Below, piece by piece: positions 8,795-14,271 of a DNA stretch of 20,417 bases (positions within the stretch are counted from its first letter, which is position 1; every line of letters starts with the position of its first letter). The notes under the pieces were generated by a model that was given only the letters and a program-made list of their open reading frames with translations, was not told the origin of the DNA and did no database searches. Source of the stretch: a virus; the IMG/VR virus record IMGVR_UViG_3300035666_000199, positions 1 through 20,417 of that record; one strand, given 5' to 3'. Position numbers and translations under genes: made by a program.

Positions 8795-9177
8795 TAAATG
8801 TAATCCTCGTATTTTTCTAGCATTTGGTGTACTTCAGTGTATGGCACAATAACAACCTTACACATGCCTTCTTTAACAATGTGCCTACGCACTAACCATA
8901 TAAAGTCTATCTGCTCATCGTCTAAGAACACACCAGCAGCTTGTAGTGCATCTGTGGCTTGCTTTTCGTAGTTAGCTATATCTCTGCGCCTACGGTCTGG
9001 AGGATAGAAAGCGTAGAACACAGCTAGCCTTCCCTCTATCTTAGCTTTAGCGTCTACAACTATGTCTTGCACAGCCTCTCTAAACTTCTGTGTAGGTTTG
9101 CTTAAGAACTTGCGCTTACCTCCGTAGTGGTGTGAGTGATTGGTGCTTGGAGGCCATGGCAGTGTAAGTTTAATCAC
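8794..9177 (-). CDS. rusA: RusA-like Holliday junction resolvase
   Basis: The 127-residue protein has the RusA layout: N-terminal LPWPPSTNHSHHYGGKRKF (5-23) and the catalytic region DRRRRDIANYEKQATDAL to VFLDDEQID (61-91). Compared with E. coli RusA, Asp66 matches D70, Lys72 matches K76 and Asp87 matches D91, but the D72 position is Ala68 (RDIAN instead of RDLDN). RusA enzymes are dimers that cut four-way junctions, here probably resolving recombination or replication intermediates before packaging. The start is a GTG with AGGAG seven bases upstream inside the end of the methyltransferase gene. The two genes overlap by eight bases. Confidence 0.88.
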   Translation of the reverse strand: MIKLTLPWPPSTNHSHHYGGKRKFLSKPTQKFREAVQDIVVDAKAKIEGRLAVFYAFYPPDRRRRDIANYEKQATDALQAAGVFLDDEQIDFIWLVRRHIVKEGMCKVVIVPYTEVHQMLEKYEDYI

Positions 9178-9886
9178 CTATGCGCTCCTTAGCTACATTA
9201 AAATAGTTTTTGTCTAATTCAATACCTATAAAATTACGATTAAAATTTTTGCAAACAACACCAGTTGTACCTGTTCCCATAAAAGGGTCTAAAATTGTAC
9301 TATTTTCTTTGCTAAAATTATTAATTATAGTAGATGCTAATTCTTCAGGGTAAACTGCTCCATGTTCTTTATTTATTTTTTTCCCTCGTTTAATTTTCCA
9401 TAAATTTGTAAGAGTTCCACGATTAAAATTTGCACTTTCAAACTTTCTACTTTCTGGTGCAGAATTTTGCAAAACAATTACAGCTTCCCATTGACTATTC
9501 ATAACGCCATGACCAATTGCTGGTTGTGCATTGCATTTATCCCATACAATAAATTCTTTTATTTTATCGCTGTATTGACCAATTAACTTAAAAAGTGCTG
9601 GTTTGTTTCCAGTTAAAAACTGCACATTATAAAAAACTAAATCAGAAATTCGTAAACATTCCTGTAAAACAAGATTATTAAATTCAAAATACTTGTCCAT
9701 TGGTAAGTTGTCAGAATAATTAGAATATTTAGTTGTTAATTCTTTTACAATTTGTCTTGAACAATATTTACCATTTCTTATTCTTAAATTCATGTTATAA
9801 GGTGGTGAAGTAACAATCAAATCAATACTATTACTAGGTATAGATTTCATTACCTCTAAGCAATCGCCATTTATAAGTTTAATCAT
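9170..9886 (-). CDS. Orphan DNA methyltransferase (N6-adenine or N4-cytosine, beta class)
   Basis: The 238-residue protein belongs to the N6_N4_Mtase family. The catalytic motif IV TSPPYN (26-31) comes first, and the AdoMet-binding motif I LDPFMGTGTTG (199-209) and FIGIELD (219-225) come last, which is the beta-class order. Ser before Pro-Pro-Tyr leans to N4-cytosine, but this is not decisive. No restriction enzyme gene is adjacent, so it probably protects phage DNA from host restriction or marks it. The gene is visibly richer in A/T, with poly-A codon runs, than its neighbours, which suggests recent acquisition. It overlaps the YbcO-like gene by ATGA and rusA by eight bases. Confidence 0.9.
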   Translation of the reverse strand: MIKLINGDCLEVMKSIPSNSIDLIVTSPPYNMNLRIRNGKYCSRQIVKELTTKYSNYSDNLPMDKYFEFNNLVLQECLRISDLVFYNVQFLTGNKPALFKLIGQYSDKIKEFIVWDKCNAQPAIGHGVMNSQWEAVIVLQNSAPESRKFESANFNRGTLTNLWKIKRGKKINKEHGAVYPEELASTIINNFSKENSTILDPFMGTGTTGVVCKNFNRNFIGIELDKNYFNVAKERIGD

Positions 9887-11519: not shown

Positions 11520-12488
11520 CTAAAATTTTAATTGCCACACTTTTTCGTGTTGGCTTCCCTTGTATCGCATAGACGGTGCATCAAACCACAATGCAATCTC
11601 GCCCTCCCATTCACCATGGCGCTGCTTATCACATATCAACAAGCAATCAGGTGCATTTAACTCTTCTTCTTTAGCCTTACCACTACGAATTAACTTTTCT
11701 TTTTTCTTGTTACGCCAAACAGTCATCACATTGTCTACCTGGTTGGTAATGTCTGCTGAGCCAGCCACATCCATCTTGTTAGGTGGACTAAACTCATCCT
11801 CACCTTTGCGGCTGTGAGCAATCAAATGTACATGAACATTCAAATCCCTAGCCGCTGCACATAGCTTATCCAAGAACTCCTTTTGAGCGTTCATGTCATC
11901 AGACCTTACACCGCACTTCATCAAACTGTCAATCACAAAATGCTGCACACCCAGCGTTTCAGCCACATAATACAAAACAGCAATTACACGCTCACCGTTT
12001 ACTGTGCCTTGCTGGTCATACATATACAGCCTGTTATCTAAGAATGTAAAGTATTCACCAATAAACTTCTCTGTCGGTTTCTCTGTACCTGTGGCCTGTC
12101 TAGTCATGCGCTGTAGGGTTGAGTATGGGTGCATCTCAAACGAAGCCACACATACCTTAAAATCCTGCTGCACGATAGAGTTAATCACTTGGCCCACTAG
12201 CTGGCTTTTGCCATGGCCGTTAATGCCTGACCACAGACTTACCTCACCTAAACGCAACCTAAACTGGTCAAATGTTTTTTCCCAAGGCAACTTTACGCCT
12301 TGCATCTGCTCGTCTTTGTAAAAGTAGTCTACAACCTCGGCTTGGTACTGGCTTGCTGACTTGACATTAGCCTTGTCTTCTTCCCTGGCTTTCATAAAGC
12401 CTTCAAAGTCAACCTTTGGCAACATCATGCTTGCTCGTTTGCGTCTAGCCTCGTCTAAAGCTGTAGCGCCTCTCTCTAAGTTACTCAT
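11520..12488 (-). CDS. Replicative DNA helicase, DnaB/RecA-type core
   Basis: The 322-residue protein is a RecA-fold helicase with Walker A GINGHGKS (88-95), Walker B HFVIDSL with Asp187, the sensor loop LIAHSRKGEDEF, and the DnaB-like segment VAGSADITNQVDNVMTVWRN. It lacks a DnaB N-terminal domain. The first 75 residues are helical and charged. It should form the ring that unwinds phage DNA, working with the primase finger and O-like initiator encoded just upstream. I start at ATG 12488 (MSNLERG) with GAGG nine bases upstream. A TTG two codons earlier is less likely. It overlaps the primase finger gene by eight bases. Confidence 0.9.
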   Translation of the reverse strand: MSNLERGATALDEARRKRASMMLPKVDFEGFMKAREEDKANVKSASQYQAEVVDYFYKDEQMQGVKLPWEKTFDQFRLRLGEVSLWSGINGHGKSQLVGQVINSIVQQDFKVCVASFEMHPYSTLQRMTRQATGTEKPTEKFIGEYFTFLDNRLYMYDQQGTVNGERVIAVLYYVAETLGVQHFVIDSLMKCGVRSDDMNAQKEFLDKLCAAARDLNVHVHLIAHSRKGEDEFSPPNKMDVAGSADITNQVDNVMTVWRNKKKEKLIRSGKAKEEELNAPDCLLICDKQRHGEWEGEIALWFDAPSMRYKGSQHEKVWQLKF

Positions 12489-12885
12489 AATCAACCGCCT
12501 CTCTAATTCTTTCGTAAGCTAACTGTAAGCGCTGTAAGTCAGTTTCGTCAAGCGGTTTATTTTTCTTTAGCTCAAACGCAGCTAAAAGAACGATTTGCGA
12601 CTCATACTTGATGGCCTCTAAAATGTCAGTAGCGTAAAACTTCTTCTTAACTGGCGCTTTGTGGTGAACTTGCTCTGGAAACAAGTCACCTATGTCAACA
12701 CCTATTGCCCCGACAACATCAACAGCACTGCACCCAGCAAAGCAATGCAATAGTATGTGGCCGTCTGCTTCCTCTTTAATGGATAGGCTAGGGCTTCTGT
12801 CATCGTGAGCTGGGCAACAAGCCAAATAAGAATTGCGACCAGTAGACTTAACCTTGTTTAAACGGCTTAATAGGTTATTTATCAT
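12481..12885 (-). CDS. CHC2-type primase zinc finger protein
   Basis: The 134-residue protein starts at ATG 12885, with AGGGG ten bases upstream inside the end of the initiator gene. The primase zinc finger is clear: CCPAHDDRSPSLSI (23-36) and HILLHCFAGC (43-52), giving ligands Cys24, His27, Cys48 and Cys52. It ends shortly after a helical tail (ILEAIKYESQIVLLAAFEL). The TOPRIM catalytic domain that normally follows is absent, so it cannot be a full primase. It may guide a host or another phage primase to the helicase, or be one half of a split primase. It overlaps the initiator gene by 11 bases and the helicase by eight. Confidence 0.82.
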   Translation of the reverse strand: MINNLLSRLNKVKSTGRNSYLACCPAHDDRSPSLSIKEEADGHILLHCFAGCSAVDVVGAIGVDIGDLFPEQVHHKAPVKKKFYATDILEAIKYESQIVLLAAFELKKNKPLDETDLQRLQLAYERIREAVDYE

Positions 12886-13549
12886 AATTAATAGCCCCTG
12901 CAAAAATATCCATGTAAGAATCATCGGGATTTTCGTCTTCCCAACGGGCATTGTTTATGTATGTGGCTGCCATGGGTATGTAGCCGCCCTTCCATTGCCT
13001 TGATTCTTTTTGCCACGACAAAGCTTCAACAACTGTTTTTAAGTTTGGCTTAATCTTTATCCACGCTTTTAAAGCTTGAGCCTTTCCGCTTTTGTTTGGG
13101 TATTCTTTCCAAAATGAATCAAAATCATGTGGAGTCTGAACAATTTTAGTTACATTGTTTTTCTTTTTTTCTACTTCTACTTCTACTTCTACTTCTACTT
13201 CTACTTCTTGCTTGCTAGTTGCTTGCAAGTTTTTAGTATAATTATCCCTAAATTTCAATAGGTTAGGGATTTTAACATTGATATTATCAGACTGTCGTTG
13301 AACAGTTATCAAGCCAACATCAGAGCAACATTGAAGTAAGAATAAGAACTTTTTTGATGTGATGTTTGTCTGACGACCCCACCTTGACAAGCTGTAAGTA
13401 ACATCATGCTTGTCAGTTTCATCCATAGCTTCTCCAACAATTTCAAGAAGCTTAAAATAAAAGCCATACCCTTCAAGGCTTGTTTTGTCTTCTAACCAAG
13501 AAATTCGCTCATCATTTCTAGCTGTAGAAAAATGTTTAAACCATTTCAT
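12875..13549 (-). CDS. Phage replication initiator, O-like
   Basis: The 224-residue protein has two parts joined by an acidic linker. Residues 1-105 (MKWFKHFSTARNDERISWLE, LEGYGFYFKLLEIV) resemble the N-terminal domain of Lin1244/Lin1753-type and O-like replication proteins with a winged helix. Residues 140-215 (FDSFWKEYPNKSGKAQALKA, WKGGYIPMAATYINNARWED) are the C-terminal unit typical of O-type loaders that recruit the helicase. The linker is a run of Glu-Val repeats encoded by a hexanucleotide repeat. I start at ATG 13549 with GAGGAAA upstream. It overlaps the HNH gene by 14 bases. It is likely to mark the phage origin, which in such phages often lies in this gene. Confidence 0.8.
   Translation of the reverse strand: MKWFKHFSTARNDERISWLEDKTSLEGYGFYFKLLEIVGEAMDETDKHDVTYSLSRWGRQTNITSKKFLFLLQCCSDVGLITVQRQSDNINVKIPNLLKFRDNYTKNLQATSKQEVEVEVEVEVEVEKKKNNVTKIVQTPHDFDSFWKEYPNKSGKAQALKAWIKIKPNLKTVVEALSWQKESRQWKGGYIPMAATYINNARWEDENPDDSYMDIFAGAINYDK
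13171..13206 (-). repeat. Six perfect hexanucleotide repeats in the initiator gene
   Basis: Six uninterrupted copies of CTACTT on the plus strand (GAAGTA on the coding strand) encode consecutive Glu-Val pairs in the linker of the O-like protein. A TTTTTTT run lies just before. Copy changes by slippage would keep the reading frame and only change linker length. Repeats inside O genes can also mark the origin. Confidence 0.9.
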
Positions 13550-13991
13550 TTTTAATTTCCTCAAGCCAAGTAGATTCTATTTTTTGCAATCTACTCCCAA
13601 GTTTGTGCATTGTCAAAGACCATTCATTTTCTTCATAATTAATCTTTTTAAGAAACAACTTGTAATCACATCTTAAATATCCTGCTATTATGAAGCTAAT
13701 CTTATGTCTATCTAAATCACCACCATTGTTATCTAATACAGTTGAAAGCCATCTAATTGGGTCTATTTTATCGTGAAGTTCTTTATGGCATGTTTCGCAC
13801 AAAACAGAAAGTTGAGCCACACCATACTCCCAAGGCTCTCTACCTTTAATGTAATCTTTATGGTGAACATTTAGTGTTGATTTATCGTCTTTACATGATT
13901 CACAACAAAAATTGTTTTTTTGCATAACTTCAAGCCTAAGCTTTTGCCAGCGAGGGTCTTTAAGTTTTTCGTAATAAGTTTTAGCGGCCAT
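13536..13991 (-). CDS. HNH endonuclease, first gene of the leftward early operon
   Basis: The 151-residue protein has a typical HNH fold: YYEKLKDPRWQKLRLEVMQK at 6-25, CESC with Cys30 and Cys33, LNVHHKDYIKG (40-50) with His43-His44, and LCETCHKELH (64-73) with Cys65, Cys68 and His69. The C-terminal 75 residues are helical and not recognised. The ATG has UAGGAG six bases before it, and this site lies in the 3' arm of a long leader hairpin. It overlaps the initiator gene by 14 bases. It could be a recombination or packaging nuclease or a homing endonuclease. Its position at the head of the replication operon makes a role in phage DNA processing more likely. Confidence 0.85.
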   Translation of the reverse strand: MAAKTYYEKLKDPRWQKLRLEVMQKNNFCCESCKDDKSTLNVHHKDYIKGREPWEYGVAQLSVLCETCHKELHDKIDPIRWLSTVLDNNGGDLDRHKISFIIAGYLRCDYKLFLKKINYEENEWSLTMHKLGSRLQKIESTWLEEIKNEMV

Positions 13992-14097
13992 ATTAGCTCC
14001 TATTCAGTAGCGGGCTGGATGATAAGTCCAACAAGTAAAAACCACGCCAGGATGCGCACAGAGTAATTACTGACTCCGCTATTGAATAAAAGCTAAT
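13992..14097 (-). promoter_or_regulatory. Long leader hairpin covering the HNH gene ribosome binding site
   Basis: Two 22-base arms, 13992-14013 and 14076-14097, are inverted repeats (19 of 22 identical). As RNA of the minus strand 21 of 22 positions pair, two of them as G-U, with a single A-C mismatch. The 3' arm holds the Shine-Dalgarno UAGGAG and ends directly before the HNH start codon. The 62-base loop also holds small dyads such as TGGA/TCCA. As a folded leader it would block translation until opened. The rest of the 310-base gap 13992-14301 holds promoters and operators listed separately and no gene. Confidence 0.7.
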
Positions 14098-14131
14098 ATA
14101 ATTGTGTAACATTGATACATCCTGTAAATGG

Positions 14132-14152
14132 AATTGGGTTATCAAACCAATT
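14132..14152. promoter_or_regulatory. Operator-like dyad near the leftward early start point
   Basis: AATTGGgTTatcAAaCCAATT is a 21-bp dyad with eight of nine half-site pairs matching. It lies just downstream of the leftward promoter candidate, at or after its expected start point, where a bound repressor would block initiation. No regulator that binds it is identified. Confidence 0.5.
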
Positions 14153-14158
14153 AACAAC

Positions 14159-14188
14159 AGTCTAGCACAAACCACCCTAAAAGTCCAA
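14159..14188 (-). promoter_or_regulatory. Candidate leftward early promoter
   Basis: On the minus strand TTGGAC (14183-14188) and TAGACT (14159-14164) are separated by 18 bases, and TGC precedes the -10 as in an extended -10 promoter. Each hexamer matches consensus at four of six. It would drive the HNH-to-Q operon with a leader of about 160 bases that includes the dyad and the hairpin. Confidence 0.4.
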
Positions 14189-14243: not shown

Positions 14244-14271
14244 TTGACAGGTTCCAAGGCTGGAATATAAT
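14244..14271 (+). promoter_or_regulatory. Strong rightward early promoter
   Basis: TTGACA (14244-14249) and TATAAT (14266-14271) are both perfect consensus boxes at 16-base spacing. This is the best promoter in the window and starts the plus-strand operon at 14302. Its spacer carries a dyad described separately. Confidence 0.85.
14252..14265. promoter_or_regulatory. Operator-like dyad inside the rightward promoter
   Basis: TTCCA AGGC TGGAA is an exact inverted repeat (5-bp arms, 4-base centre) filling the spacer between -35 and -10. Binding there would exclude RNA polymerase. It differs from the dyad at 14132-14152, so two different factors, or none, may act. Confidence 0.45.

Follow-up and report, generated by a model that had tools for sequence, protein, structure and literature searches.

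The leftward replication operon of the virus analysed here, for which the whole 20,417-base record is referred to as the window, is preceded by a leader that, on comparative sequence evidence, is a new RNA family missing from Rfam. In this type-1 leader, a three-way junction holds the Shine-Dalgarno (SD) sequence of the first gene, the loop of a 5' hairpin (P0) pairs with a loop of the junction (L3), and a leader open reading frame (ORF) is present. With moderate confidence, the leader can be regarded as a cis-acting translational switch that would be opened by ribosomes on the leader ORF. The first operon gene (13536..13991, minus strand) encodes a 151-aa HNH-type protein, as indicated by a weak Pfam HNH match. 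The rest of the operon (11520..13564, minus strand) encodes a Lin1244-like protein (weak match), the CHC2 zinc-finger part of a primase and a DnaB-like helicase; these last two are separate genes in the window (11520-12951) and are fused in many named phages. A gene resembling a site-specific DNA methyltransferase (TSPPYN motif) is also found among the replication and recombination genes, at 9170-9886 on the minus strand.

The first ribosome binding site is predicted to be sealed in helix P1

The leader contains an inverted repeat with arms of 24 nt (13990-14013 and 14076-14099) spaced by 62 nt, which in the leftward RNA form the helix P1. The 5' arm (14076..14099, minus strand) is supported by the inverted repeat, the fold and covariation, and the 3' arm (13990..14013, minus strand) by the inverted repeat, covariation and opening energy. 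The hairpin described in the initial annotation, with 21 of 22 positions paired, is real, but each arm is 2 nt longer and 23 of 24 positions are paired. Three positions deviate from a perfect repeat: one is an A.C mismatch, and two, as had been noted, become G-U pairs, both of which fall on the SD. The folding energy of the leader RNA is -48.6 kcal/mol (z = -3.9), and none of 200 shuffled sequences was equally stable.

The P1 stem encloses the SD AGGAG (14001-13997) and reaches the A and U of the first-gene AUG. The computed cost of opening this ribosome binding site (RBS) is about 17.3-17.5 kcal/mol with the pseudoknot left out of the energies. For the other 29 genes of the window, the median is near 4 and the largest value 10.0 kcal/mol. 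The first gene thus ranks highest among the 30, in agreement with the original view that the SD is buried and that the stem abuts the AUG. With a ribosome over the 5' arm of P1, the cost drops to 5.5 kcal/mol, again leaving the pseudoknot out. One relative is an exception, as the gene RBS behind its leader (L091) needs just 3.8 kcal/mol to open. We infer that the leader structure would repress translation of the first gene.

The leader forms a three-way junction and a kissing loop that covary

The 62 nt between the P1 arms had been seen as a loop large enough to hold a sensor or protein site. These nucleotides hold two further helices, P2 and P3, and the leader is therefore a three-way junction, which is also the RNAalifold consensus (P1 with the SD, P2 and P3). 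Hence, the loop is not an open one, and the idea of a functional site is partly retained in the form of a structured domain with a P3 loop that kisses P0. The P2 hairpin (GUAA...UUAC plus inner pairs; 14035..14070, minus strand), taken from the RNAalifold consensus, is the weakest helix, with 90% of its alignment cells paired. The P3 hairpin (GUUGGA-CUUAUCA-UCCAGC; 14014..14032, minus strand) has compensatory pairs and carries the 7-nt loop L3 (14026-14020), which is complementary to the P0 loop. P0 itself (AAUUGG-UUUGAUAAC-CCAAUU; 14132..14152, minus strand) has arms that covary and is located where the transcript is predicted to begin, in the same place in every type-1 leader; its 7-nt loop is U-turn-like and includes the bases UGAUAA (14144-14139) that are complementary to L3.

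About 30 close relatives of the window helicase were found in viral contigs, and DNA patterns taken from the leader located it in 27 contigs, which represent 12 distinct sequences. The comparison among related phages that had been proposed as a check found the pairing conserved: 13 of the 43 pairs of the full fold are compensatory, a result obtained in none of 500 shuffles, and slid controls gave at most 3. For the junction, 7 of 32 pairs are compensatory (covariation score 0.238, versus 0.131 shuffled and at most 0.07 slid). The covarying P1 pairs include those at the SD, where the G-U pattern is kept. Compensatory changes among relatives thus support the earlier proposal of selection at the RNA level and, judged from these alignments, the leader hairpin is conserved as RNA.

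The kissing helix between P0 and L3 has 4 compensatory pairs out of 6 (score 0.222 versus 0.040), all four from one lineage; the kissing letters are UGAUAA/UUAUCA in most leaders and AUUGAC/GUCAAU in the L086 lineage. Independent changes come from sequences outside the alignment, as the kissing register is unchanged in the distant phages L063, L268, L300 and L308, with new double changes (UAGUAA/UUACUA). Two other roles for the P0 loop were considered. P0 as a mimic of a tRNA anticodon, similar to the thrS operator, was rejected because the loop letters change jointly with L3, and the pairing with L3 explains them (e.g., AUUGAC/GUCAAU in L086). An alternative partner, UAUCAA beside the start of the leader ORF, is present in several variants and was set aside because it is missing from L092 and L063.

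The predicted transcript includes the whole fold and a leader ORF

A sigma-70 promoter is predicted for the leftward operon (14159..14188, minus strand), with the -35 element TTGGAC (14188-14183), an 18-nt spacer and the extended -10 element TGCTAGACT (14167-14159; -10 proper at 14164-14159). This arrangement is common to many close helicase relatives and is kept in relatives with unrelated leaders. The predicted transcript start near 14152 is located upstream of the 5' arm of P1, which contradicts a start downstream of 14076, the case named in the initial annotation as arguing against the hairpin. A consensus scan found no promoter-like site on the plus strand inside the leader. Outside the leader, the divergent rightward operon, which includes an ERF recombination gene, has on the plus strand at 14244-14271 a sigma-70 promoter that matches the consensus perfectly (TTGACA-16-TATAAT).

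The leader ORF (39 codons, MLHNYISFYSIAESVITLCASWRGFYLLDLSSSPLLNRS; 13993..14112, minus strand) crosses the whole three-way junction, including P1, P2 and P3, and its UAA (13995-13993) ends 1 nt ahead of the HNH AUG. Its SD, AGGA (14120..14123, minus strand), is found 7 nt ahead of its AUG, and both SD and start codon sit between P0 and P1, with an RBS opening energy of 3.0 kcal/mol (pseudoknot left out) that indicates an accessible site. All distinct near variants have this ORF open and an SD-like sequence ahead of it. The distance from the start codon to the conserved core is 31, 34 or 25 nt, i.e., multiples of 3 apart, and in the L086 lineage it is 29 nt and a different open frame is used. 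Two of the three frames of the core are closed in most variants. By our estimate, the chance that four independent placements would all fall in open frames is a few percent, which is suggestive, but not proof. In the near variants, the ORF ends either 1 or 12 nt short of the first gene, or the two overlap. Among the distant members, it ends 2 nt (L063) or 9 nt (L268) before the gene or overlaps it (L300); as exceptions, it stops 28 nt before the gene in L303 and continues in frame into the gene in L308. In distant members of higher G+C content, an open frame is hardly informative. The leader peptide is not conserved; L104, L106, L110 and L111 differ in the frame used for the 3' half. The case for translation of the leader ORF is therefore based on its SD, start codon and open frame, and the act of translation, rather than its product, would be under selection.

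Type-1 leaders are found in diverged phages and precede different first genes

A covariance model, R1, built from the type-1 leader was used for distant searches and matched L063 (E 8e-8), L308 (1e-7), L268 (E 2e-4), L300/L309 and L303/L307; L063 is G+C-rich and its helicase is 45% identical to that of the window. In addition, a scan for the P0 sequence identified 15 contigs, five of which (L300/L309, L303/L307 and L308) have a type-1 junction directly after P0. Since P1 is palindromic, the reverse strands of true members score as high as 29-36 bits, and L268 (33 bits), L303 (31) and L307 (26) were accepted solely on the grounds of agreement in P0, L3 and position. All defining features of the family were found in the type-1 leaders, the leader ORF being the weaker one in distant G+C-rich members.

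Rfam 15 gave nothing at the gathering threshold in the window, 11 relatives and 6 distant or type-4 loci (see below), and one unrelated chance match only at E<=10. Likewise, nothing was found by a blastn comparison of the leader with named phages, by a scan of bacterial and archaeal genomes with the leader DNA patterns or by model R1 in the replication regions of eight named phages; a loose regular-expression scan returned noise only.

The genes directly behind the leader vary and include HNH, GIY-YIG-like (L106, by eye) and DUF1376 genes. L009 carries a leader identical to that of the window from the leader ORF on, yet its next gene is of the DUF1376 type and homology to the window ends exactly at the AUG. 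The leader is also found directly ahead of DUF1376-type genes in the L086 group, L110, L111, L300 and L303, the assignment for L300 and L303 being a resemblance seen by eye. Because one leader precedes differing first genes, it belongs to the replication operon, and the HNH gene of the window is probably a passenger inserted between the leader and the replication genes.

Other structured RNAs occupy the same slot in close relatives

Among close relatives, the slot between the promoter and the first gene also holds structured RNAs of other types (types 2 and 3). Type-2 leaders (L006, L008, L011, L015, L018, L019, L022, L023, L026, L027 and L034) have two hairpins, the complementary loops of which covary (GGACUAG/CUAGUCC, GGUCAAG/CUUGACC and GGACAAG/CUUGUCC); the second hairpin has 18 bp and is followed by U8 and an SD. 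No match to type 2 was found in Rfam. The first operon ORF of one of these phages (L026) contains a TSPPYN-like motif. In type-3 leaders (L021, L025, L028, L030, L031 and L035), the loop of a 5' hairpin pairs with a strand of a three-way junction (UUGGAG/CUCCAA, UUGCAG/CUGCAA and UUGGCG/CGCCAA). In four type-3 sequences, 16 of 34 pairs are compensatory, and all four have a U run after the closing stem. The UUGGCG/CGCCAA pair is reminiscent of the rep pseudoknots of IncB/ColIb.

Type-4 leaders, found in L301 (minus strand 10316), L304 (2592), L305 (minus strand 853), L310, L311, L312 and L314, share P0 with the distant type-1 leaders and have a terminator-like closing stem. That of L304 lies behind a terminase-like gene, apparently with an intein-like insertion. 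Tentatively, types 1, 3 and 4 could form an as yet undescribed superclass of promoter-proximal phage leader RNAs, in which a 5' hairpin kisses a multi-branched domain, modules are exchanged among related phages and the closing stem is an interchangeable expression platform, serving as timers or sensors in early gene expression. The platform would be an SD-hiding stem read by a leader ORF in type 1 and a terminator-like stem in types 3 and 4.

Proposed mechanism and alternative explanations

An accessible leader-ORF RBS, a sealed gene RBS and the position of P1 across the leader ORF point to a mechanism in which the first-gene RBS would be opened by translation of the leader ORF. In the proposed switch, RNA starting near 14152 would form P0, then a linker with the leader-ORF RBS and start codon, and then the three-way junction. 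As long as this fold is intact, the first gene would be off and the leader-ORF RBS accessible. A ribosome translating the leader ORF would disrupt all three junction helices as well as the kissing pair and terminate next to the AUG, so that the first gene and, with it, the downstream operon would be translated by coupling. The kissing pair would control either the rate at which the off state is restored or the frequency of initiation on the leader ORF. It may favour rapid re-closure of P1, reduce initiation on the leader ORF or serve as a binding site for a protein or another RNA.

The last role is central to another explanation, which we consider rather unlikely, in which closure of P1 is governed by a metabolite, a phage protein such as a product of the operon, or an antisense or trans-acting RNA bound to the kissing complex or to the junction, the open frame being secondary. 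Such a sensor or operator would account for the conservation of the junction and P0/L3 nucleotides, for a kissing loop kept across large distances and for a sister class that shares P0 and ends, like riboswitch platforms, in a terminator-like rather than an SD-hiding stem. It would leave the conserved leader-ORF SD and start codon unexplained, however, and neither matches to known ligand-binding families in Rfam nor, in a consensus scan, an antisense promoter on the plus strand within the leader was found. It is improbable that the leader is a promoter-proximal RNA that acts on RNA polymerase or mRNA decay, through put-like antitermination or as a 5' stabiliser, with burial of the SD as a by-product; although the structure begins at +1 of an early promoter and the same slot of close relatives has other structured RNAs, some ending in U8, type 1 is without a conserved terminator and its covarying P1 pairs coincide precisely with the stretch from the SD to the AUG, with the SD G-U pattern kept. 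Very improbable, in turn, is a DNA-level element (a single-strand origin or a recombination or insertion site) with a palindrome that reads as RNA by accident, since the G-U pairs, the mismatch and the kissing loop of two hairpins covary as RNA pairs and the start codon marks the end of the stem in every case, even if the homology break between L009 and the window exactly at the AUG resembles a recombination boundary. An endonuclease-specific hairpin of the T4 I-TevI or Aeh1 mobE type, silent in early RNA and with a later promoter inside the 5' arm, can be dismissed almost entirely, as the leader directly precedes DUF1376-type replication genes and the sole promoter-like site (14128-14101), rejected as an I-TevI-like internal promoter, is weak and not kept in relatives, despite an HNH-like first gene here and documented SD sequestration for phage homing endonuclease genes (PMC3014915).

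Comparison with known leader systems

The proposed switch has parallels in known systems. Hairpins that sequester the SD are found in T4-type phages, in genes e, soc, 49 and I-TevI, and in Aeh1 mobE (PMC3014915). As in these, a long leader stem seals the SD and start codon; unlike these, the leader described here is without a late promoter in the 5' arm, has a leader ORF and a kissing loop and shows no tie to endonuclease genes. Hairpins of bacterial mRNAs can also be controlled by upstream ORFs; in Salmonella, translation of a small intergenic ORF of a Mg2+ transporter unfolds the structure that covers the following RBS (PMC8092293). Reading of the leader ORF would similarly open the next RBS here, but the fold is a different one, with a kissing loop and in a phage operon.

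By anatomy, the leader resembles the rep leaders of I-complex plasmids in its leader ORF ahead of a replication gene, U-turn-like loop and loop pseudoknot. The last two elements were reportedly described for I-complex rep leaders by Asano and Mizobuchi in 1998 (cited in PMC10724649). In these plasmids, the replication gene requires translation of a leader ORF, i.e., repY-repZ of ColIb-P9 and repB-repA of IncB/K (PMC10286972), and work cited in PMC10724649 points to the involvement of a pseudoknot. Differences are that no antisense RNA was seen here in a consensus promoter scan of the plus strand, that the pseudoknot partner is the P3 loop inside a three-way junction, and that the operon is a phage operon with different genes, the comparison being one of anatomy and not of sequence. 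The leader may thus work like I-complex rep leaders or T4-type hairpins, by analogy rather than by established membership.

In summary, the leader represents an RNA family absent from Rfam, with a defined fold, clear compensatory mutations and at least five diverged lineages. It also indicates that genes of homing-type endonucleases can become established downstream of a regulated leader that was already in place, and that unrelated structured RNAs replace one another within a single promoter-proximal slot. If the proposed switch is correct, phage replication genes would be controlled by an on/off leader of a new kind, a pseudoknotted RNA driven by a leader ORF, and would follow a logic best known so far from plasmid copy-number control.
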